From positions 62,001-126,000 of the IMG/VR virus record IMGVR_UViG_3300047547_000041: DNA of 64,000 nt; one strand, written 5' to 3'. Below, in pieces: positions 4,721 to 55,331 of the stretch. Every line of letters begins with the position of its first letter. Within the stretch, counting starts at the first letter, position 1. The notes beneath the pieces were generated by a model. The model made no database searches, had not been told where the DNA came from, and saw nothing but the letters and a program-made list of their open reading frames with translations. The translations under genes and the position numbers were made by a program. The stretch comes from a virus.

Positions 4721-5254
4721 ATGTCAACAATTACTGATTTTCGTTCTCGTCTTGCCGGTGGTGGCGCACGCCCATCGCTGTTCAAGGTGATTCTGAACTT
4801 CCCCGCATTTGTGCCGCTTGGCCCGGGTGCATCGCGTTCCGCTGAACTGTTGGTCAAGGCCGCATCGCTGCCAGCAACAACCATGGAAAAGGTGCCTGTG
4901 GATTTCCAAGGTCGCAAGGTCAATCTGACCGGTGAAAAGAATTTTGAAGACTGGACAATCACCGCTTATAACGATACGGATTTCTTGATCCGTGATGCGT
5001 TTGAGCAATGGATGGAAGGTATGAACGGTTCGGAAACCAATGCCGGTCTGCAAAATCCTTCTGAATATGTTGTGGACATGGTTGTGATTCAACTGGACCG
5101 CAACCAACAACCAATCAAGACATACAGCATCAAGAATGCTTTCCCGACAAGCGTTGGTGCAATTGAACTTGATTATTCGTCTACCGGTCAGATTGAAACT
5201 TTCCAAGTTACTCTCGCCATGGACTACTTCACTTCTGTTGGCGTCAACGCCTAA
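4721..5254 (+). CDS. 19: Tail tube protein
   Basis: The protein has 177 residues, close to T4 gp19 (163). It begins MSTITDFRSRLAGGGARPSLFKV and contains FEDWTITAYNDTDFLIRDAFEQWM, typical of T4-type tube subunits. The tube polymerises inside the gp18 sheath and forms the DNA channel. An AAAGGA site sits before the ATG. It lies between gp18 and gp20 exactly as in T4. There is no UAG, as in the other abundant structural genes. Confidence 0.9.
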   Translation: MSTITDFRSRLAGGGARPSLFKVILNFPAFVPLGPGASRSAELLVKAASLPATTMEKVPVDFQGRKVNLTGEKNFEDWTITAYNDTDFLIRDAFEQWMEGMNGSETNAGLQNPSEYVVDMVVIQLDRNQQPIKTYSIKNAFPTSVGAIELDYSSTGQIETFQVTLAMDYFTSVGVNA

Positions 5255-5257
5255 GTA
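5252..5257 (+). promoter_or_regulatory. Late-promoter-like TAAGTA upstream of gp20
   Basis: TAAGTA overlaps the gp19 stop codon and lies 27 bases before the gp20 start. It is a member of the TAA(A/G)TA set. Confidence 0.3.
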
Positions 5258-5284
5258 GTGAACTGAAAACAACAGACTATACTC

Positions 5285-6796
5285 ATGGCGCAATTTTTTG
5301 GTTACGAATTCAAGCGTAAGGCGGATAAGGAGCAAAATGCTTCTTTCGCACCGCCCGCTGTCACCGATGGTGAAATTATCAATGATCAAGGTGTCTATGG
5401 TGCATTCAATGCATTCTCGATGCAACTTGGTCTTGATGATATTACGGATGAAAACGCAATCATCAAAAAGTGCCGTGATATTTCTACAACGTCTGATGTT
5501 GATCAAGCTATTTCTGAGATTGTGAGTGAAGCAATCGTGTTCGATCCGGGCAAAAAGGTTGCACAACTCGCTTTCTCAGAAAATTTTGATGAATTGTATA
5601 ACGAGAAGCTGAAGAAAATTCTCACCGAAGAATTTGAAGTTGTTTATCGTTTGTTTGATATGAACAACAAGGCACAAGATCATTTCAAGACATGGTATGT
5701 CGATGGTCGTCTTTGTTTTCACGCTATTGTTGATGCTGCTAGCCCTAAGGATGGCATCAAGGAAATTCGTTAGATCGATAGTCTGAATATCAAAAAGATT
5801 GTCGAAGTCAAGAAAGAAAAGTCTAACGAATCCGGCAGTATTGGTGTTGTTCTGTATAAAGACAAAGAGGAATACTTTGTCTATTCGGCTAAGGGGTTTG
5901 CGGGTAAAGATAATGTTGAGGGACTGAAGATTAGCAAGGATGCTATTATCTGGTCAACATCTGGCATCAGAGAAGGCGTAACTCACAAACCCCTTTCTTT
6001 CCTGTACAAAGCTATTCGACCCGCAAACCAATTGCGCATGATCGAAGAAGCGTTTTTGATTTATACGGTTACCCGTGCACCAGAACGTCGAGTCTTCTAT
6101 ATCGACACAAATGGTATGTCGCGCACCCGTGGTGAACAGTATATCCGCGAAATCATGAATCGTTATCGCAACAAGCCGGTGTACGATTCAAAAACTGGCG
6201 CTCTGAAAGAGGAAAGCCGCCATAACACAATGCTTGAAGATTTTTGGTTGCCTAGAAATGGCACCAAGGGTACCGAAGTTCAAACTTTGCCGGGTGGTAC
6301 TGGTTTGAGCAATACCGATCTTTTGGACTATTTCAAGAACAAGATGTACAACGCTTTGAACGTTCCGCTTGGACGTTTGCAACCCAATCAGGCATTCTCA
6401 TTGGGTCGAAGCAATGAAATTAGCCGTGATGAAGTCAGGTTCAGTCACTTTGTTACCAAGTTGCGTGCACGTTTCTCTAAGGTCTATATTGAGGCACTTG
6501 GTAAGAATCTGATTCTCAAAGGTCTTATTTCCGCTGATGAATGGGAACAACTTTCACAAGCAATCACCATTGATTTCAACAAGGACAATTTCTTTGCTGA
6601 AATTAAGGAAGCAGAAGTTCTGCGCGAACGTCTTACCACATTGCAACAGGCTGAACCATTTATCGGTAAGTATTTCAGCGATGAATATGTTTTCAAGAAC
6701 ATTCTGAGAATGAATCAGGATGAAATTGATTCAATCGTCAAACAAATTCCGACACAAGTAGAACCCGCTGGTGATCCAAATCAGCAACCCGCATAA
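5285..6796 (+). CDS. 20: Portal vertex protein, one internal UAG
   Basis: The protein has 503 residues (T4 gp20: 524). The N-terminal half (GAFNAFSMQLG, ISEIVSEAIV, FKTWYVDGRLCFHAIVD) and C-terminal half (FLYKAIRPANQLRMIEEAFLIYTVTRAPERRVFYIDTN, AEPFIGKYFSDEYVFKNILRM) are both plainly gp20. They join in one frame through a UAG at 5771-5773, in the segment GIKEIR-UAG-IDSLNIKKI. T4 has Arg at that place as I recall, and many cyanophage portals have Tyr. The portal is the dodecameric gate for DNA packaging and the initiator of prohead assembly. This gene alone makes a simple nonsense mutation unlikely. Confidence 0.93.
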
Positions 6797-8861: not shown

Positions 8862-9503
8862 ATGCAACTGATTACTGAACAATCTCATGAAATCGAGATT
8901 TAGAGTGAGGGTACCGGCGATAAGAAGCAATTCTACATCGAGGGTATCTTTGCTCAAGCCGAAAAGAAGAACAGAAACGGTCGAATCTATCGTAAGAATG
9001 TTCTGGAAGAGTCGGTCAACAAATATGTTGAAAACTATGTGAAGACCCGTAAGGCTGTTGGTGAAATGAGTCACCCACAACGCCTGAACGTTGATTTTGA
9101 GCGTGCTACACACCTTGTTACCAATCTGATGTTTGAAGGTAATGATGTGATTGGTAAGGCTCGCGTTCTGACAACGCCTTTGGGTCAAGTGGTTCGAGGT
9201 CTTTTGGAATCTGGCGTTGCCGTGGGTGTTTCAACCCGTGGTGCCGGTGAAATCCAAATGGTTGAAGATGTGAAATATGTCAAGCCCGGGTTTCAAATGA
9301 CTGCTATTGACGTTGTTTCTGATCCTTCTGCCCATGATGCATGGGTTGATGGGATTATGGAAGGTGTGCAATGGGTTCAAACCGCTGACGGCGAATTTGT
9401 TGAATCTCTGAAAAGTGAAATTCGTAAGGCATCTTCGAGTCAATTGAATGAAGCCAAAATGAAGGCATTCAGTGATTTTCTCAATCACATCAAACAAATC
9501 TGA
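8862..9503 (+). CDS. 21: Prohead maturation protease, one internal UAG
   Basis: The protein has 213 residues (T4 gp21: 212). The frame starts MQLITEQSHEIEI, has UAG at 8901-8903 (codon 14), and continues with the conserved YIEGIFAQAEKKNRNGRIY. The catalytic His is in GEMSHPQ and the Ser in GVSTRGAGE, as in the S78/U9 prohead protease family. It cleaves core proteins and gp23 at (L/I)-x-E sites during maturation. Without reading UAG the only later start (9039) would delete the N-terminal strand bearing EGIF...NRNGRIY, so UAG must be sense. Confidence 0.9.
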
Positions 9504-9506
9504 CCG

Positions 9507-9512
9507 TAAGTA
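9507..9512 (+). promoter_or_regulatory. Late-promoter-like TAAGTA in the gp22 leader
   Basis: TAAGTA lies four bases after the gp21 stop and 99 bases before gp22. A transcript starting here would carry the alternative-hairpin leader at 9521-9591. Confidence 0.35.
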
Positions 9513-9520
9513 AACCCATG

Positions 9521-9591
9521 AATGGTTCCCATATGAAATTTTTGTCGATAGATGAATTGGGAACACCATTTCGGAAACGAAAAAGTTCCCA
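9521..9591 (+). promoter_or_regulatory. gp22 leader with two mutually exclusive hairpins
   Basis: The 108-base gap before gp22 holds GTTCCCA at 9525-9531, TGGGAAC at 9558-9564 and a second GTTCCCA at 9585-9591. The central arm can pair with either outer arm but not both. With the first it extends to AATGG...CCATT with a two-base bulge. This resembles an attenuator or translational switch. It carries no gene. Confidence 0.45.
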
Positions 9592-9611
9592 AACAATCTA
9601 AAGGAAACTAA

Positions 9612-10865
9612 ATGTCACTGAAACAAATCATTGAATCGAAGCTGGCCGATGCTGCCAAGTCTATCGAAAAGCCCGAAGTTAAGACCATTGGTATTGACGA
9701 AGAAATTGAATCAACTCTGGAAGCTGAAATTCTTGAGCATACTTGCAACTTGGATGAATCGGAAATCAATGAATCCGAGAAAATGTCTGACGCTGCTCAT
9801 GAACTGGTTCTCCATGCTGACAATACTAGTCAACTGTACAAGTCGAGTCATCAACCCATTGTTGCCAATCTGAAGAAGAAGGCCGCTAAGGGCCAATACG
9901 ACAAGGAAAAAGCTAAGAAGCTGTGGGGCTACCACGCTGACCGTGCTGCTCAATCGTATGCCAAGGAACACGGTGACGGTAAGACCCCATGGCACAAGAT
10001 GTTCACCACTGCTGACCGTAAGCAAGCCGCCGCCAAGTTTGAGGCTGACAACCATGATGAAATTCATTCGAAGAATGAATCGGTTGAGGCTAAGGAAACC
10101 AAGAAAAAGGAACGTGAAGAAAATATCATCATGTCCAAGAAGAAGGTTTCTGAACAAGTGCAAGGTCTTTTGGCCGCTGAAGGTTTGTCAGAAGAATTCC
10201 GCGAACAAGCCGCTACTTTGTTTGAAGCCGCTATCGCTGATCGAATGATTGAAATCACTAAGGAACTTCAGGAACAGTATACCACTGAACTGGAAGAAGT
10301 TAAGGAATCTCTGTCTGAAAAGACTGAAAAGTATTTGGAAGCTGCTACTGCTGCTTGGATTGCCGAAAACCAAGTTGCAATTAAGGCATCTTACAAGTCG
10401 CTCATTGCGGAAAAATTTATTGATGGTGTTAAGCAATTGATGGAAGATTGCGGAATTGAAATTCCCCATGAGGATGAATCGGCACTCGAAGCTGCTATGA
10501 CTAAGGTTTCAGCGTTGGAAGAAAAGCTGTCTGAAAAGCATACCAAGGAATGTGAATTGATGGAAGAAATCGCAAATCTGAAGAAGGTTGTGATTAAGGG
10601 TGATGTTTCCGAAGGTCTGACAGTTATTCAAACCGAACGTTTTGAAGCTCTGGTCGAACATATCGAGTTCAAGAATGATGACCAATATCGTCGTCAACTC
10701 GAAATGGTCAAGGAAAGTTTCTTGTCCGGTAAAACTCAGGAACCTACCAAGGCTGTTGTGACTGAAAGCAAGACCAATCAAAAGGTCATTGTTGAAAGCA
10801 CCAAGACCAAGACTGGTTCAACCGTCGAATCTTACCTCTCACACCTGCAAAACGTTAAGTTTTAA
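9612..10865 (+). CDS. 22: Prohead scaffold protein with an N-terminal extension
   Basis: The protein has 417 residues against 269 for T4 gp22. Residues about 175-417 are gp22-like: MSKKKVSEQVQGLLAAEG, EEFREQAATLFEAAI, long Glu/Lys coiled coils, and a C-terminal YRRQLEMVKESFL region. Residues 55-165 carry an extra domain (HADNTSQLYKSSHQP, YDKEKAKKLWGYHADRAAQSYA) found in several phage proteins. A second in-frame ATG at 10,131 precedes the gp22-like part and could give a shorter form. AAAGGAAACTAA precedes the first ATG. The protein forms the core around which gp23 assembles and is later digested by gp21. Confidence 0.8.
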   Translation: MSLKQIIESKLADAAKSIEKPEVKTIGIDEEIESTLEAEILEHTCNLDESEINESEKMSDAAHELVLHADNTSQLYKSSHQPIVANLKKKAAKGQYDKEKAKKLWGYHADRAAQSYAKEHGDGKTPWHKMFTTADRKQAAAKFEADNHDEIHSKNESVEAKETKKKEREENIIMSKKKVSEQVQGLLAAEGLSEEFREQAATLFEAAIADRMIEITKELQEQYTTELEEVKESLSEKTEKYLEAATAAWIAENQVAIKASYKSLIAEKFIDGVKQLMEDCGIEIPHEDESALEAAMTKVSALEEKLSEKHTKECELMEEIANLKKVVIKGDVSEGLTVIQTERFEALVEHIEFKNDDQYRRQLEMVKESFLSGKTQEPTKAVVTESKTNQKVIVESTKTKTGSTVESYLSHLQNVKF

Positions 10866-10871
10866 TAGTTT

Positions 10872-10903
10872 GGATTGTGGAATTTGAAAGAGTTCCACAA
10901 TCC
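10872..10903 (+). other. 11-bp hairpin between gp22 and gp23
   Basis: GGATTGTGGAA (10,872-10,882) pairs perfectly with TTCCACAATCC (10,893-10,903) around a ten-base loop. No T-run follows, so it is more likely an mRNA stabiliser or weak attenuator than a strong terminator. Confidence 0.6.
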
Positions 10904-10909
10904 GCAAGG

Positions 10910-10915
10910 TAAGTA
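10910..10915 (+). promoter_or_regulatory. Late-promoter-like TAAGTA upstream of gp23
   Basis: TAAGTA lies just after the gp22/gp23 hairpin and 36 bases before the capsid gene, where a strong late promoter is expected by analogy with T4. Confidence 0.4.
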
Positions 10916-10951
10916 CCACTATCAAAGATTGTTAATAGAAAGGTTCATAAA

Positions 10952-12205
10952 ATGGACGCAAATCAACTGAAAGCCCTGATGGAAAAGTGGGCACCCGTTC
11001 TGGACACTACCGATGCTCCCGCTATCGTTGGTCAAGAAAAGCGTATTGCTACCGCTGTGATGCTGGAAAACACCGAAAAGGATGCCCAAGCCACGCAACA
11101 AGTGCTGGCCGAAGATGCCACCAACAACACTTCGGGTATTGCCGATCACACCCCCGTGCTGATCAGCATGATTCGTCGTGCCGCCCCTCAACTGCTGCCC
11201 TTCGACCTGATGGGCGTGCAACCTCTGGCTCAACCTTCGGGTCTGATCTTCGCTATGCGTTCGCGTTACACCGACAAGAACGGTCCCGAAGCTCTGTTTA
11301 ACGAAGCTGATTCAGACTTCTCTGGCGCTGCTACTCCCCAACAAGCCGGTACTAACCCTGCCGTGCTGGCCGATTCGACCCCTGGTTCGTACACCGCTGG
11401 TACTGGTCTGGAAAAGTCGATTGGTGAAACCCTGGGTGGTTCTGGTCCCGCTTTCGGTACCATGGCTCTGACTGTGGAAAAGGTTACCGCAACTGCTGTG
11501 ACCCGTGCACTGAAGACCGGTTACACCGCTGAATTCGCTCAAGACCTGAAGTCGCTTCATGGTCTGGACGCTGATTCGGAAATGTCGCGTATGCTGTCTT
11601 CGGAAATCATCGCTGAAACCAATCGTGAATGCGTGCGTACCCTGTACCGTGCTGCCAAGATTGGCGCTCAAGATGCTACCGTGGCTGGTACCTTTGACTT
11701 GGATCAAGACGCTAACGGTCGTTGGTTGGCTGAACGTCACAAGGGTCTGATGTTCCAAATCATGCGTGAATCGAATGCTGTGGCTCAACAAACTCGTTTG
11801 GGTAACGCAACTTTCGTGCTGGCTTCGGCTGACGTTGTGGCTGCTCTGGCTATGATTGGTCAACTGGACTATTCGCAAGCTGGTGCCTCGCTGACCGTTG
11901 ACCAAGCTAACGTGACCTTCGCCGGTACTCTGAAGAATGGTCTGAAGGTGTATGTCGATCCGTTCTCTGGCGTGTCGGCTGGTAATGAACAGTTCGCGAT
12001 GGTTGGCTATAAGGGTCAATCGCCTTTCGCCGCTGGTTACTTCTACAGCCCATATGTGCCTCTGACCATGGTTCGTACCATCGATCCTACTACCATGACC
12101 CCAATCATGGCTTACCGTACTCGTTACGCTCTGACGGCTCACCCCTTCTTCGGCGCTTCGAACAACCCCTGCTATCGTCTGTTCCGCGTGCGCAACGTGC
12201 AGTAA
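10952..12205 (+). CDS. 23: Major capsid protein
   Basis: The protein has 417 residues. NNTSGIADHTPVLISMIRRAAPQLLPFDLMGVQP is diagnostic of T4-type gp23, as is the end MAYRTRYALTAHPFFG...RLFRVRNVQ. A gp21 cleavage site (VLAE before DATNN) would remove the first 54 residues. Codon use is strongly biased (CTG, TCG, GCT, CGT) as in highly expressed genes, and there is no UAG. It forms the hexamers of the head shell. It is followed by a strong terminator at 12,225-12,250. Confidence 0.97.
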   Translation: MDANQLKALMEKWAPVLDTTDAPAIVGQEKRIATAVMLENTEKDAQATQQVLAEDATNNTSGIADHTPVLISMIRRAAPQLLPFDLMGVQPLAQPSGLIFAMRSRYTDKNGPEALFNEADSDFSGAATPQQAGTNPAVLADSTPGSYTAGTGLEKSIGETLGGSGPAFGTMALTVEKVTATAVTRALKTGYTAEFAQDLKSLHGLDADSEMSRMLSSEIIAETNRECVRTLYRAAKIGAQDATVAGTFDLDQDANGRWLAERHKGLMFQIMRESNAVAQQTRLGNATFVLASADVVAALAMIGQLDYSQAGASLTVDQANVTFAGTLKNGLKVYVDPFSGVSAGNEQFAMVGYKGQSPFAAGYFYSPYVPLTMVRTIDPTTMTPIMAYRTRYALTAHPFFGASNNPCYRLFRVRNVQ

Positions 12206-12224
12206 TTGTTGTAAGACTCAACAC

Positions 12225-12250
12225 AAAGGCCCTTCGGGGCCTTTTTCTTT
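12225..12250 (+). terminator. Rho-independent terminator after gp23
   Basis: AAAGGCCC, loop TTCG, GGGCCTTT, then TTCTTTT. A UUCG tetraloop on an eight-base stem followed by a T-run is a textbook intrinsic terminator. Confidence 0.9.
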
Positions 12251-12281
12251 TGCTATGCGGTAAAACTAGGGTAGAACTCGA

Positions 12282-12310
12282 TTGAAAAACACGAAAAAGT
12301 GTGATACAAT
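12282..12310 (+). promoter_or_regulatory. Sigma70-type promoter in the gp23-gp25 gap
   Basis: TTGAAA (12,282-12,287) and TACAAT (12,305-12,310) are 17 bases apart. The spacer contains the inverted repeat ACAC-GAAAAA-GTGT, echoing the hairpin spacers of the - strand promoters. It would drive the structured segment that follows. Confidence 0.6.
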
Positions 12311-12624
12311 AAAAGTGATGTTTACCTGCACTAAACATTACAATGATAACACACAGATTGAACGAAGTTCAAGCTGTCGCTTGAAGGAAGTTGCTAGCAA
12401 CTTCATGAAAGCTGAACATTATGAACATCTTGTTAGAAAATTTTTCAACAAGATTTCTAACAAGATGTAAATGATGTGTATAAGTTATGAACGTTACGAT
12501 GTGATGCAAATGGGAGAACCTATGTCTGAGTGGTTCAGACCATGCTTTACCGTTTACAACAAGTTCACATCATTCAGTCGCATACTGCGTATGCTTTGTG
12601 AATGATCGGCTTCGCCGGTATCAT
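12311..12624 (+). other. Structured intergenic segment, possible small RNA or small peptides
   Basis: This lies between the terminator-promoter pair and gp25. It has several inverted repeats: CATCTTGTTAGAAA at 12,427 with its complement TTTCTAACAAGATG, GCATAC-TGC-GTATGC, and a GATCGGC-TTCG-CCGGTATC hairpin near 12,605. Two short frames exist: about 51 codons from the ATG at 12,318 (ends FFNKISNKM), and about 44 codons from 12,471 (contains MSEWFRPCFTVYNKF). Neither matches a family I know and neither has a clear ribosome-binding site. A non-coding RNA is as likely as small genes. No tRNA cloverleaf was found. Confidence 0.35.
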
Positions 12625-12625
12625 G

Positions 12626-12631
12626 TAAATA
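12626..12631 (+). promoter_or_regulatory. Late-promoter-like TAAATA upstream of gp25
   Basis: TAAATA lies 33 bases before the gp25 start, after the structured gap, and would head the baseplate gene run. Confidence 0.4.
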
Positions 12632-12664
12632 TGATATTCGACACCAAAGATCACAATCACTAAA

Positions 12665-13069
12665 ATGTCAGAAACTTTCAAAATTGTCTCTAGGAACTAT
12701 AGAGACATTTCATTTTCATTTCAACCTCACCCCGAAACTGGTGCACTAGCATCTAAAAAGGATATTGAGGCTGTTAAGCAATCTGTTAGAAACCTGATCT
12801 TTCTGAACAAGGGAGATAAACCGTTTCATCCTGAAATTGGTACGGATATTCAAAAACTTCTGTTTGAAAACTCGTCAATCCTTGTTCTTGGTCTTATTGA
12901 GGAAGACTGTCGAAGAGTCATTCAAAACTATGAACCCCGCGCAAATCTAATTTCGGTTAGTGCTAAGTATGGCGATGATCTTCACACTGTTTAGATTTCA
13001 GTTGTTTTTGAAGTCGTTGGTATCGAAGAAGAAGTCACCCTTGATGTAATTGTAAGGCGAACACGATAA
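12665..13069 (+). CDS. 25: Baseplate wedge protein gp25, one internal UAG
   Basis: The protein has 134 residues (T4 gp25: 132). It has the gp25/lysozyme-like fold pattern: AVKQSVRNLIFLNKGDKPFHPEIGTDIQKLLFE, then RRVIQNYEPRANLISV. A UAG at 12,992-12,994 interrupts the last beta segment (DLHTV-UAG-ISVVFEVVG), and the protein ends normally 25 codons later at VIVRRTR with TAA. T4 has a hydrophobic residue at this place. gp25 forms the wedge core with gp6 and gp53 and starts sheath assembly. The TAATG overlap couples it to gp6. Confidence 0.88.
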
Positions 13070-14874
13070 TGTCACTCATTCAAGACCCAAGTTTTGACGG
13101 TATCAAATCTTCACTGATCGAATACCTGAAGTCTCAAGATACCTTTACCAATTACGATCTGGAAGGTACGGCTTTCAACATTCTGTTGGATGTTCTGGCT
13201 CAAAACACTCACTATTTGAGTTTGCTTGCAAACATGGTGGGCAATGAAGCGTTTCTCGATACCGCACAAAAGCGTTCTTCTGTTGTAAGTCATGCCAAAG
13301 TTTTGGGTTACACCCCAACAAGTGCCAAGTGCTCTACCACAACTTTGAATGTTAACCTTCTGAATGTCGTCAGTGGTTCTGATGTTGGCAATCTCGAAAC
13401 TTTCACAAAGTTCCAAAGCACATATCTCGGCAACACTTACGATTTCTACACGATCAATCAATACCAAGTTTCGAGTGTTGAAGATGAATTCATCTTTGAG
13501 AATGTTTCGGTGTTTGCCGGTAAACCTTTCACTGATCGTTACACATTCGATGCATCAACCAATGAACTTCAGAAGTTCAAAATTGTTTCAAAGTTGGTCG
13601 ATACAAACACGGTTCGGGTTTACGTTCGTCAGGCATCGGATACCAATTTTGTTCTGTTTTCTCCCGCACAAGACATTACGGAAATCACTGCCGATTCCGA
13701 TGTTTACTTTTTGCAAGAATCGTTTGATGGGTTCTTTGAAATCTACTTCGGTCAAGGCATCTTGGGCAAGGCACTTCAGAATGGTTCCGAGGTTCGTATT
13801 GAATACTTGTCGGCTGAATACACAACGCAAACCAACGGATGCAATAACTTTTCATTGGTTACCGACATTGGTTACAACACAACCTGTTTGACCTTTGATT
13901 CGGCGTTTGGCGGCGCGGGTGTGGAAAGCATTGAAAGCATCAAGGAAACGGCCCCAAAGGCGTTTGCAGCGCAAAATCGTGCTGTGACCGCATCTGACTA
14001 TGACTACATCATCAAAAAGAGTTTCCCGTATGTTACCGGCATCTCTGTTTGGGGTGGCGAAGACAACTCACCTCCCGTTTACGGTAAGGTGTTCATCTCG
14101 CTGAGTCCTGAACCGGGCAAGTACATCTCTTAGGAAACCAAGAACAACGTTATCGCGGAGTTGATTCGTAAAAAGAGTGTTCTTACTGTGATTCCCGAAT
14201 TTGTTGACCCTGATTACATCTATGTTTTGGTCAACAGTGATGTTAAGTATCGTCCTCAAGGTTCCGTCACCAATAAAAGTGATATTGTGAGTGTTGTTTC
14301 TGCCGGTATCAAGTCATATTTGGATTCAAACATTGGCGTTTTCTTGTCTGGTATCGATTACTCGAATCTTGTTGCATTCATTGACAAACTTGACGGAAAC
14401 ATTGTTTCAAATCAAACTCGTCTGCGTCTGAAAAGAAAGCTGCAACCTGTTTTCAACACAATCACAACATATTCTGTTCCATTCAGAAACCCGATTCAGC
14501 AAGGTTCTGTTTACAGTGATGCTTTCTTGATTTCTGTTGACGGTCAAATCAAAACCTGTTATCTCCGCGATGGTGAATCTATCACCGTTTCGAGAGATTC
14601 GAAGGGTTTGGTAAACACTGTTGGTGTTATTCAGTTGGTCGATTACGAGACTGGTGAAATCTACAAAGATGTTGGCTCGATTGTTTACACCGCTTCAGAT
14701 TCTGGTCAAGCTGGGTTCATTTCATTTGGTTTGAACATTGGTTCTCTGCAAGCACAAAAGTTCGACCTTGAACTTTATGCAACACCTCAAGACCTCAACA
14801 TTGCAGGATATTTCAACACCATTTTGACAGTAGATAACGAAAGTGTTGACTCTATCAAGGTGGCGGTTAAGTGA
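13069..14874 (+). CDS. 6: Baseplate wedge protein gp6, one internal UAG
   Basis: The protein has 601 residues (T4 gp6: 660). Gp6/J-type features include IEYLKSQDTFTNYDLEGTAFNILLDVLAQNTHYLSLLANM and YGQ-type GFFEIYFGQGILGKAL, then AVTASDYDYIIKKSFPYVTGISVWGGEDN. A UAG at 14,131-14,133 sits in PGKYIS-UAG-ETKNNVIAELI. The C-terminal third (VIPEFVDPDYIYV, IDKLDGNIVSNQTRLRLKRKL) continues in frame. gp6 dimers connect the wedges around the hub. The stop overlaps the next gene. Confidence 0.88.
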
Positions 14875-16316
14875 TGACGGATATTTCAATTTTCATCAAG
14901 TCGCAGATTCCGGCGCACCTGAGAAGCAATGAACTGTTTGTTCAGTTTCTTGTTTCTTACTATACATGGTTGAGTAAATTTCAGCGCAGAATTCCAGAAG
15001 TCACACGGCTAGAAACAAACGTTATTCTGTACGTTGATATCGGTTACGTTGAGTCTGGTTACATCAAGGGTTTCACCGAAGAACGGGTTGTGACTGATGT
15101 TGCTGAAGTTCCTCAAGAATTCAACCCCGCTGGTCTGTTCACAAATTTGTCAACTATTCTGGATATTGACAGAACGTTTGACATTTTCCTTGATATGTTC
15201 TCCAAGACATATGCAAGTGCTGTTTACGCAAGTAATGAATCTGCTGCCAAGCTGCTGGTAAAGAACATTCGTTCAATCTATGAGGCTAAGGGTACGCCCG
15301 GCGCGATCAAGAGTTTGTTCAGAATTCTCTATCAGGAAGAAATCAACATCACGACACCGTATGACAGTACCATGCTTGTTTCCGGTGGTGTTTGGAAAGT
15401 TCCAAAGAAGATTCGAGTCAACGTTGCTTACGGTGATGCGAGTGACATTGAAAATTCATGGGTCGCTGTTGACTTTGGCGGAACGAAAAGACGCTTGCCC
15501 GTTGTTCGAGCCATTCCAGTTTTCAATCCATTGGATGCCGGTGGTGTTTATCTTGATTTGGAATTTGAAAACCTTGGCGATTTGAACATTCCACCATCCA
15601 CACTGATCACACTGACCGATAGATTCCGTGGATCGGTTGTCCATGTTCCAACAAAATACAAAATTCTGAGCCCCGGTACAGGGTTTCAAATTGGTCAGAA
15701 GTTTGAACTCATTGACAATAACGGCTACGGTTCAGTTGTTCGAGTAACTAAGATCACACCGGAAGGTGGCATTTCTGCGCTTGCATTTGATGAACGTGGT
15801 TTTGGATACACTAAGAAGTTTTCTGCAACTCTGACAAGTAGCGGAAAAGAATTCTCAAAGTCTGATACCCCGGGTCGTTATACCGATAGCGTCAATTTTG
15901 GCGATTCGGGAACAGTTTTGGTTAATGGTGTAGAATGGGCAAAGTTTGGTAAGGGCGCGTCTATCGTAAAGAAAAACGAAAGTGCGATTATTGAGTTTGA
16001 TGTTTATGGGAATTACGATGAAGAAGGCTATTTTCTTTCTGGCACTTTTATTTCTGACAGTAGTTTGTATGACGGATTCTACTTCCAACAATACTCATAT
16101 GAAATTTCAACAACCGCAGAACTATCAGACTATGAGGACATTCTGAAAAGAACTGTTCACCCTGCCGGTACAAAGAATTTTTCCAAGCGCAGAATTGAGA
16201 ATACTTTGAGTCCGCAATTCTTCGCCGGTATCGAAAATGTTCCAATTGTCGCATTGATTAACGATAGTTTCGATTTTGATGACGATACTACCGTTCAAAA
16301 ATTTCTTTCTCTGTGA
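14871..16316 (+). CDS. Baseplate wedge-type protein (gp7-like position)
   Basis: The protein has 481 residues beginning MTDISIFIKSQIPAHLRSNELFVQFLVSYYTWLSKFQ. The segments LDIDRTFDIFLDMFSKTY, LLVKNIRSIYEAKGTPGAIKSLFRILYQEEI and VSGGVWKVPKKIRV match a family that follows gp6 in marine T4-like phages and is usually called a baseplate wedge protein. The middle contains one GTGF/GFGY beta unit like the sheath repeats. It is much shorter than T4 gp7 (1032), so equivalence to gp7 is inferred from position. Confidence 0.65.
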   Translation: MMTDISIFIKSQIPAHLRSNELFVQFLVSYYTWLSKFQRRIPEVTRLETNVILYVDIGYVESGYIKGFTEERVVTDVAEVPQEFNPAGLFTNLSTILDIDRTFDIFLDMFSKTYASAVYASNESAAKLLVKNIRSIYEAKGTPGAIKSLFRILYQEEINITTPYDSTMLVSGGVWKVPKKIRVNVAYGDASDIENSWVAVDFGGTKRRLPVVRAIPVFNPLDAGGVYLDLEFENLGDLNIPPSTLITLTDRFRGSVVHVPTKYKILSPGTGFQIGQKFELIDNNGYGSVVRVTKITPEGGISALAFDERGFGYTKKFSATLTSSGKEFSKSDTPGRYTDSVNFGDSGTVLVNGVEWAKFGKGASIVKKNESAIIEFDVYGNYDEEGYFLSGTFISDSSLYDGFYFQQYSYEISTTAELSDYEDILKRTVHPAGTKNFSKRRIENTLSPQFFAGIENVPIVALINDSFDFDDDTTVQKFLSL

Positions 16317-16319
16317 CGA

Positions 16320-43130: not shown

Positions 43131-43478
43131 TTAGCAACGGTTTGCACGTTCGTGACAAGCAGCTTCGGCAACCATCCAAGCAAGATGGTTAGCCAGATAT
43201 GTGTCGATTTCCTTACCCGACAGGGTGTTGTACACGACCTTCCGACCATGGGCTTTTTCAAGTGCCGAAGTGCTGACGATACCTTCATCAACCATTTCGT
43301 CAATCCATTCAAAAATCAGTTCACGATTGTCTTCGTAGAACTTGTTGGTTTCGCTGTAGTAGATGAAACCACTGAAGCCACCAGCAATACCATGATTGCA
43401 AACATCTTGGAAGCATTGCTCGAACTCTTCTTCGCCACCGAATTGTTCAACCACAGCGTTGTACAGATTTTGGTTCAT
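43131..43478 (-). CDS. Conserved phage protein of unknown function
   Basis: The protein has 115 residues: YNAVVEQFGGEEEFEQCFQDVCNHGIAGGFSGFIYYSETNKFYEDNRELI...YLANHLAWMVAEAACHE. This resembles a small acidic family (DUF7222-type) common in phage accessory regions. No catalytic motif is seen. It is co-directional with a 3-base gap to the next gene. Confidence 0.6.
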   Translation of the reverse strand: MNQNLYNAVVEQFGGEEEFEQCFQDVCNHGIAGGFSGFIYYSETNKFYEDNRELIFEWIDEMVDEGIVSTSALEKAHGRKVVYNTLSGKEIDTYLANHLAWMVAEAACHERANRC

Positions 43479-43480
43479 GA

Positions 43481-43726
43481 TCAGATTCCTACTTCGTTGA
43501 TTTGATGTTTGAGATTATCCAACTCTTCCATCAGTTTGTCAATACGTTGGATGATTTTTTGTTTTTGCATTCTTCGGTCGGCGTCTTTGTCATATTGAAC
43601 CCAAATCATCCGATGGCAACCTTGAGCCGAAAGTTTCCGACAAAGATCATGTTCATAGATGGCGACACAACCGCCACAACCAAGGCTTTCGCGTTGACGA
43701 TAGTTGCCACATTCGGAAATTCTCAT
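43481..43726 (-). CDS. Hypothetical protein with Cys cluster and coiled-coil tail
   Basis: The protein has 81 residues. The N-terminal half has six Cys (CGNY, CGGC, LCRKL, GCHRM) and may bind zinc. The C-terminal helix (MQKQKIIQRIDKLMEELDNLKHQI) is a coiled coil. It is the first gene after the promoter at 43,766-43,793. Confidence 0.55.
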   Translation of the reverse strand: MRISECGNYRQRESLGCGGCVAIYEHDLCRKLSAQGCHRMIWVQYDKDADRRMQKQKIIQRIDKLMEELDNLKHQINEVGI

Positions 43727-52766: not shown

Positions 52767-52816
52767 CCTTATAGTTCTGTGCCTCAACTGCTACTATTGT
52801 AACACAGTTGAGGCAC
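52767..52816 (-). promoter_or_regulatory. 12-bp inverted repeat in the gp41 leader
   Basis: GTGCCTCAACTG and CAGTTGAGGCAC form a perfect stem around a 14-base loop, in the 87-base gap between uvsX and gp41. The loop on the - strand contains TACAAT, a possible -10 element (a weak AACTGA lies 17 bases upstream). No T-run follows. It may be an operator, an RNA regulatory hairpin or an mRNA processing site. Confidence 0.55.
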
Positions 52817-53991: not shown

Positions 53992-55331
53992 TCAGCCGAA
54001 GAAACTTGTAATGTCAGCGGCATCAGGGATGACAACACCAGCAGCACTCAGGAAGTCTTCAACAGGCTTCATGAACGACTTTTCCCACATTGTACCATAG
54101 TCAATGTAAGGTTCCATCTTGAACTCGCTAGGCAGCTTGTCAATGAAACCAATCACATTGTTCTTGGTCGGATTGGGCAACACGGTATAGACAAACTTCA
54201 TTTTGTCGCCCGGGTTGATGTTAGGAACATCGTTTTCAAGTTTCTTGTCCTTGACCATCATGTTATGGACAATCGATGCGCGAACGTGAATAGGGCAACC
54301 CTTCTTGGGACCGGTAGGCGTTTCCCATTTAGCGATATCCTTTACCCCACGCGGGAATGCGATTTCTTCGGGCTTTGCATTCATGTAGATTTCGCGGGTC
54401 TTTTCGATATGGTTTTGAATCTTTCCAATGTCTTCGTCCAAAAGCATTGGCAACATATCGGTTAGATGGGTTCTAACAATTTGGGGCGTGGAAGAACGGA
54501 CAACAGTGATGCCCATGATCTTCAAATCACCTTCAGGATATTCAACACCTTCATTGTTGTAAACGCGGGTCATGTACATCTTCTTAGCAATCATCAAAGC
54601 CCGATCAGCAACGAATTCTCGCTTGAATGATAGCCGTGTAGCATCGAGGTTCAAATAATCGCTCAGAGAGGCCATAGAGGCGTTCAGGATGGGTTGAATC
54701 TTGGCATCGATCACCTTGATCAGACCGTTTGTGATCTTGGTCTTGTCTTCAACACCGGACATGTACTTCTTAACAATCTCGTCAAGACTGAAAAGAACGG
54801 AGTCAGTGTCAGTGTAGAACCTTGAGTTACATCCGAACAGTTCTTGATACCATTTATCAATTCCGTCACCAGCATATCGAACCATGCATTGACCTGTCAG
54901 TGTAATGCCTTCAGACAATCGAGAATCCTGAAGGAAGAACCAATCGTTTGCGGTTGCGCCATACATTTGTATTCAGTGCAAGTCGTTAATTTGCACCCGT
55001 CATTAAGACTGCTCATAGTCACCTATGAGATTAGACTATCTCACCATCTTCCATGGAAGATGCCCACCACTTCGAGCCACTTGACCCTACGGATAAATCC
55101 TAGTCGTTACACTTTTCCGGTTTCCCGGACTTAGCACGGTATTGTCTCAGTGAGAGTTTCACCGTTTTCGATGGGTTATTCGATCAGTGTCACCACTGAA
55201 AGCCTCTACATTCAAAGGGAATTGCCAGCAACCTTGAAAGAACTTTGCCGAGTGTCATACTCTGCAATTTTCTTATCACAGAACTTCAACTTTTCCAACA
55301 GTTCGTCATTACTCAATTTGCTTAAATCCAT
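53992..55331 (-). CDS. 43B: DNA polymerase C-terminal part (43B), split by a group I intron
   Basis: Two exons, 55,215-55,331 and 53,992-54,963, together encode 362 residues. The start MDLSKLSNDELLEKL has AAGGA six bases upstream. Exon 1 ends FKVAGNSL and exon 2 begins YGATANDWF, restoring polymerase motif B (KxxxNSLYGA). Motif C is YTDTDSV. The end is KSFMKPVEDFLSAAG..., as in T4 gp43. It supplies palm catalytic Asp residues and thumb, and must pair with 43A. Without splicing the frame hits TGA just after NSL. Confidence 0.9.
54964..55214 (-). ncRNA. td-like group I intron, ORF-less
   Basis: 251 nt interrupt 43B between codons for Leu and Tyr of NSLYG. Read on the - strand, GACAATACCGTGCTAAGTC and AAAACGGTGAAAC match the P3-P7 region of the T4 td intron (there GACAATCCCGTGCTAAATTG). 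GTGTAACGACTAGG and GAGATAGTCTAA are the R and S elements. P1 forms between exon CCUU and intron GAGG with the required U-G pair at the 5' splice site; the intron ends in G. It is short and carries no ORF. Confidence 0.9.

Follow-up and report, generated by a model that had tools for sequence, protein, structure and literature searches.

A probable pair of paralogous structured noncoding elements in a T4-type phage

Several structured RNAs carried by phages, among them RNAC and RNAD of T4 and the GOLLD and ROOL RNAs, have been described without a known function (PMC9697503, PMC12286853). RNAC and RNAD are presented in the T4 account as small untranslated late RNAs, and GOLLD and ROOL as phage-borne, elaborately folded noncoding RNAs that are often found near tRNA islands, many GOLLD RNAs being >800 nt long. 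For ICP1, PMC7567579 describes a noncoding transcript of ~800 nt beside the lysis cluster and a transcribed region of ~300 bp between gp135 and gp136. The element reported here resembles RNAC and RNAD in being a putative small untranslated RNA of a T4-type phage; however, those RNAs belong to the late class, whereas here a host-type promoter and a paralogue were observed, and neither blastn nor Rfam provided a link, although distant homology may exist. It resembles GOLLD and ROOL as a phage-borne, strongly folded noncoding element, but these are far longer, no Rfam match was obtained here and neither copy lies in the tRNA cluster of the phage (26.5-27.9 kb of the record). The ICP1 RNAs likewise come from gaps without frames, a likeness by description and from a different phage, and the resemblance to the noncoding RNAs of phage K is one of kind, as these are described in PMC9241854. 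In the literature on phage structured and noncoding RNAs and on T4 stable RNAs, no report of this RNA was present among the matches listed.

The DNA analysed, referred to as the window, comprises 64,000 nt and spans positions 62001-126000 in a T4-like phage record of 144,840 bases. The closest named phages according to gp23 are Synechococcus phage BUCT-ZZ01 (55.9% identity; 56% as rounded for the nearest phage record) and Methylophilales phage Melnitz-3 (49.4%), and the best identity of gp6 to any phage record is 36%. These low identities indicate an isolated T4-type lineage.

Anatomy of the locus and its second copy

The gap between gp23 and the next gene is 459 nt long (12206-12664) and is followed by gp25-gp6; in the four annotated relatives the next gene begins 119, 95, 74 and 69 nt after gp23. 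The features of this copy (copy A) and its neighbours are listed below in window coordinates.

10952..12205, + strand: gp23, major head protein gene, upstream neighbour (phrog_138, E 6.6e-122)
12225..12244, + strand: terminator-like hairpin 3' of gp23 (pattern match)
12282..12310, + strand: sigma70-type promoter TTGAAA-17-TACAAT (pattern match), with an ACAC...GTGT inverted repeat in its spacer
12302-12310, + strand: extended -10 TGATACAAT, with TG before the -10 (pattern match)
12315..12341, + strand: hairpin P1, with a conserved 7-nt loop CCWGCAC (12325-12331)
12353..12377, + strand: hairpin P2a, diverged in sequence in copy B
12379..12412, + strand: hairpin P2b, diverged in sequence in copy B
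12416..12477, + strand: long hairpin P3, overlapping an AT-rich cluster (12412-12497)
12487..12560, + strand: central domain, with conserved GAACGTTAC (12489-12497) and GACCATG (12538-12544)
12524-12540, + strand: hairpin P7, inside the central domain and weak in copy A
12569..12606, + strand: hairpin P8, nearly invariant across the copies; outermost pair A-T in A and C-G in B
12607..12617, + strand: hairpin P9, CGGC-TTC-GCCG; AGGC-TTC-GCCT in B, a compensatory change
12619..12636, + strand: hairpin P10, holding the late promoter motif (pairing probability 0.90 in A and 0.21 in B)
12624..12631, + strand: T4-type late promoter motif TGTAAATA, 41 nt upstream of gp25
12665..13069, + strand: gp25, baseplate wedge gene, downstream neighbour (PF04965, E 3e-9; phrog_261), with one in-frame TAG
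12282-12470 and 12471-12605: small frames of copy A, of 62 and 44 aa

The terminator-like hairpin, promoter, repeats, hairpins, small frames and late motif had all been named in an initial annotation of this segment and were confirmed. A 14-nt inverted repeat (12427-12440/12441-12454, 86%) was seen to lie within a larger one of 24 nt (12416-12439/12454-12477), and a weak terminator-like hairpin (12685-12707) overlaps the initial codons of gp25.

A search within the phage genome revealed a second copy (copy B) at 43.3-43.7 kb of the record, 31 kb from copy A at 74.3-74.6 kb. The two ends of copy B that match copy A, both on the + strand, are 43341-43388 (92%, query 45-91) and 43636-43687 (94%, query 321-372), with E values for the matching blocks of 1.8e-17 and 7.1e-13 and about the same spacing between them as in copy A. 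The block containing the promoter and P1 (12294-12343 in A) is identical between the copies in 45 of 51 aligned columns, and the 3' hairpin block in 49 of 52. The promoter of copy B (locus L082) has the extended -10 TGGTACAAT, a 17-nt spacer and a weaker -35, GTGAGA; the inverted repeat in the promoter spacer of copy A is not kept. It is followed by P1 with the loop CCWGCAC, by hairpins of other sequence, by GAACGTTAC and GACCATG, and then by the near-invariant P8 (CATTCAGTCGCATACTGCGTATGCTTTGTGAATG) and P9 (GGCTTCGCC). Judged by sequence comparison, the diverged middle parts of the two copies are still homologous, with an alignment score of 19.5 compared with a mean of -1.3 (sd 4.8, max 13.5) for 200 mononucleotide shuffles. 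A covariance model built from the 3' halves of the two copies, with pairs limited to P7-P9 (model R1), found copies A and B as its sole matches in the phage genome at E up to 1.

Because the end hairpins and the -10 region of the promoter recur in the second copy, the segment is more than a chance arrangement, and the paralogue gives good support to the initial proposal that the late module contains an independent, structured unit with a promoter of host type. Within 9000-16000 neither promoter patterns (14 vs 10.7 +/- 4.5) nor terminator patterns (7 vs 6.5 +/- 2.5) exceeded shuffled sequence. The extended form TGNTA[CT]AAT occurs at six sites in the window, one of which precedes the listed start of a DnaB-like helicase gene by ~40 nt, and this site suggests, short of proof, that extended -10 promoters may serve pre-late genes. 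For the late core TAAATA (e.g. at 16319 and 18551), eight sites were counted on the + strand of the window and one on the - strand. Of 24 + strand starts listed by hand, six are preceded by this core at a distance of 32-47 nt, including that of gp25. Given TGTAAATA before gp25, and ACTAAATA after copy B and preceding its downstream gene, a T4-type late promoter motif follows each putative RNA. A pattern search of A and B found no intrinsic terminator common to both copies.

The surroundings of both copies also differ from those in related phages. In all four annotated relatives gp23 is followed on the same strand by 1-3 other genes and then by uvsY and/or a uvsW-type helicase (the BUCT-ZZ01 annotation names only a helicase there, no uvsY). 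Here, the uvsW-uvsY-PAAR-gp55 block (L085:941-4145) lies 31 kb from gp23 on the other strand. Copy B adjoins the 5' end of gp55, between minus-strand gp55, uvsY and uvsW on one side and plus-strand genes on the other; the first gene after it encodes a 243-aa protein with no Pfam match and the second weakly resembles a minor tail gene (phrog_4120, E 1.2e-4). As this order of gp23 and uvsW-uvsY-gp55 differs from that in the four relatives, both copies are considered to lie at rearranged module boundaries.

Folding, coding potential and searches for relatives

Copy A (12317-12660) is predicted to fold at -100 kcal/mol with a z-score of -5.1, and copy B with a z-score of -8.3; in neither case did any of 100 shuffles reach as low a value. 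The 300-nt window at 12317 (z -4.55) ranked third of 213 consecutive windows (20 shuffles each), and since two others score lower, folding alone would not settle the reality of the segment. The stronger-folding windows, 5117-5416 (z -5.8) and 317-616 (z -4.8), are mostly under long open frames. The antisense strand of copy A folds equally well (z -5.2), and the assignment of a strand thus rests on the promoter.

Both copies contain, in the same order, P1, the adjacent P2a and P2b, the long P3, the central domain with P7, P8 and P9; copy B has an extra hairpin, P2c. The mean pairing probability of P1 is 0.98 in A and 0.39 in B (under half-formed in the predicted ensemble of B), and that of P7 is 0.33 in A and 0.99 in B. 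Pairs were mapped between the copies through alignments of sequence alone at four gap settings, and sliding the partners by 1-3 served as the control. Of the 110 pairs in the fold of A, 85-101 could be mapped and 70-73 were kept paired in B, compared with 27-48 for slid partners. In the reverse direction, 87-96 of the 117 pairs of B were mapped and 61-70 kept (28-41 slid). The kept pairs are mostly unchanged in sequence, and double changes numbered 3-7 compared with 0-6 when slid. Structure-aware pairwise alignments gave 38 and 23 double changes; these counts are not taken as evidence, since the method forces pairing and the shuffle control of the middle block was not significant. In that control, the variable middle reached a structure-aware alignment score of 111, which is within the range of 60 shuffles of B (91 +/- 16, max 123), with 17 double changes compared with a mean of 21 in the shuffles. 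Conservation of structure in the middle block is accordingly not proven, the score being within shuffles and the sequences only two. Clean compensation is seen in P9 (C-G to A-T) and in the outer pair of P8 (A-T to C-G), but given the middle-block control the two-copy covariation can be regarded as suggestive only.

The early peptide proposed in the initial annotation did not find support, as no frame is common to copies A and B. The 62-aa and 44-aa frames are both interrupted in copy B, where TAA or TGA breaks all three frames, also if TAG is taken as a sense codon. A one-base indel separates the copies already within P1, the 62-aa frame begins at a TTG inside the -35 hexamer, and the one amino-acid stretch common to both copies, FSRILRMLCE, stems from the invariant P8 DNA. 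The shared end blocks, the divergent middle and the lack of a common frame together speak for a paralogous pair of genes for noncoding RNA and against a peptide.

The initial annotation had also suggested a check for a tRNA or a known RNA family in the segment, and none was found. Rfam 15 gave no match at gathering score in the 64-kb window, and no tRNA or tmRNA was detected in the window (ARAGORN, Rfam) or at copy B (Rfam). Permissive Rfam scans returned 19 matches for A and four for B, none at gathering score and all with E 0.03 or worse, of which 15 and three, respectively, were to microRNA or snoRNA-type models. Several candidates were dropped: tmRNA, the glutamine riboswitch and 6S RNA had no Rfam match (a permuted tmRNA is carried by phages of the Melnitz group, according to the genome description in PMC9004378), a photosystem-linked cyanophage RNA was set aside as PF00124, a photosystem gene, has no match in the phage genome, and a retron or DGR RNA was rejected with no match to the PF00078 reverse transcriptase in the phage (the control was positive in 3 of 14 genomes).

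Sequence searches elsewhere were also negative. The best blastn matches among 50,697 phage records had E values of 0.4 (A) and 1 (B), with two and 12 weak matches and none to T4. In viral contigs, three exact patterns had no match, a 5' hairpin pattern had three, none with the promoter or the 3' module, and a gapped P8 pattern had ten, none backed by the covariance model; all 13 inspected matches are chance. One pattern searched in genome contigs had no match. Model R1 was run on 50 records, namely this phage, 45 of 80 gp23-related viral contigs (many of them short fragments) and four phage genomes; the best match in the 49 other records was S-SKS1 (E 0.18), and no convincing relative was found. 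Nor did gp55 and gp6 reveal close relatives of the phage in viral contigs. Since the searched collections seem to hold no close relatives of the phage, the absence of the RNA elsewhere is weak evidence.

Competing explanations

The two copies form a genuine pair of compact, structured and paralogous noncoding elements, which are probably RNA genes. We favour, with moderate confidence, the reading that the phage has two paralogous genes for a noncoding RNA, of which the segment is one, the folded RNA being the product and acting before the late switch. Host RNA polymerase would transcribe each copy from its extended -10 sigma70-type promoter, with early timing suggested by the promoter type and a 5' end expected at ~12317 in copy A. 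The product would be an RNA of ~320-345 nt with a 5' hairpin, a variable hairpin block, a central domain and a near-invariant 3' hairpin pair. The late promoter motif, which would lie at the 3' edge of the RNA, may drive the neighbouring gene, the late mRNA of which would then be independent of the RNA. The most likely mode of action would be that the conserved ends of the folded RNA bind a protein or a nucleic acid before the late switch. What survives of the first interpretation is the structured unit with its host-type promoter, without the peptide, and nothing found in the analysis points to a target for the decoy role it had also mentioned. Several results sit less comfortably with RNA genes, including the small excess of double changes in two sequences, the lack of a conserved intrinsic terminator, the weakly formed P1 and weak -35 of copy B, promoter pattern counts no higher than in shuffles, the two windows of lower z-score and the equally strong antisense fold. 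The pair nevertheless offers a natural comparison between the parts that are kept (promoter, 5' loop and 3' hairpin pair) and those that vary.

The strongest rival takes both copies as replication origins of the T4 R-loop type, in which a transcript from a host-type promoter hybridises over an AT-rich unwinding element and primes the leading strand; this is possible, though we consider it doubtful. In the treatment of T4 origins in PMC3016281, oriF and oriG consist of a promoter and a downstream AT-rich element, with R-loops shown for oriF, and oriE apparently depends on an early promoter. The same source places three active origins near transcription divergence with compositional shifts, and reports no common motif among T4 origins and no need of a specific sequence for oriF R-loops. 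The present copies are like oriF and oriG in having a sigma70-type -10 promoter (matched as a pattern, not as a function, upstream in both) followed by an AT-rich element: across the 106 kb covered, 60-nt windows with at least 75% AT form only 11 clusters, and each copy holds one of these. They are unlike them in forming two copies with conserved blocks and strong folding, and an origin would leave the near-invariant P8 and P9 unexplained, as T4 origins lack a common motif. AT-richness is in any case usual for noncoding DNA, and the transcript would not be notably G-rich (65 G and 56 C of 324).

The case for an origin appears better for copy B and weaker for copy A. Copy B lies at a transcription divergence beside gp55-uvsY-uvsW, and at a change in GC skew, which is negative in 8 of 12 bins at 20-43 kb and positive in 17 of 19 bins at 43-80 kb. 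However, the skew largely tracks the coding strand and varies beyond 80 kb, and the frame map before 43 kb is mixed. Copy A is at neither a strand nor a skew switch and shows a local skew dip only. If true, the origin reading would bear on the control of R-loop formation and of origin usage in T4-type phages, which PMC3016281 lists among the open questions.

In such an origin the fold of the transcript may help, as in ColE1 RNA II. The two copies might even be duplicated origins built around a conserved folded pre-primer RNA, similar to ColE1 RNA II, and shut off at the late switch; we regard this as unlikely, and if true it would represent an origin design different from that of T4, whose origins have no motif in common.

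It is also rather improbable that the segment acts as a structured 5' leader, with sigma70 transcripts running into gp25 or the gene after copy B and the fold blocking or attenuating early expression until the late promoter takes over. Each copy does directly precede a same-strand gene with no clear terminator between them, and the weak terminator-like hairpin in the first codons of gp25 would suit attenuation, but it has no + strand counterpart in B. Moreover, the late promoter motif at the 3' edge would yield a main late mRNA that lacks the leader, and the downstream genes (gp25 and the 243-aa protein) are not recognisably related.

A repeat acting as DNA, either as homologous sites or as a mobile unit at recombination junctions at module boundaries, is very unlikely. 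The placement of copy A next to gp23 and of copy B beside the gp55-uvsY-uvsW block, unlike in the four relatives, and the equal folding of both strands of copy A would be in keeping with hairpins that function as DNA, but oriented end hairpins and a conserved promoter whose register is fixed are more easily explained by transcription. That one of the small frames encodes an early peptide is hardly credible, as both are open in copy A but, besides the P1 indel and the TTG start in the -35 hexamer, neither runs through copy B.

Amber codons and other features of the genome

TAG is apparently a sense codon in this phage, as 33 in-frame TAGs were counted across 22 of 26 genes checked, including gp25, gp6, gp55, uvsW and the helicase gene (examples at window 12992-12994 and 14131-14133). 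The phage carries an 85-nt tRNA with a CUA anticodon (L089:1010-1094, - strand), 69 of whose 85 bases are the same as in the tRNA-Leu(CAA) of the same cluster. This resemblance suggests that amber may be read as leucine rather than as the glutamine of table 15. Homologue residues were readable at 10 of the 33 TAG sites and are mixed, the commonest being Leu, Ile/Val or Tyr at four and Glu, Asn, Asp or Gln at six.

The largest gap without an assigned gene in the frame survey is at window 54967-55321 (355 nt). On either side of the extended -10 that precedes the helicase gene, TGTTACAAT, lie the arms of a perfect inverted repeat of 12 bp, GTGCCTCAACTG/CAGTTGAGGCAC (window 52779-52816, - strand), which could possibly be an operator or attenuator.
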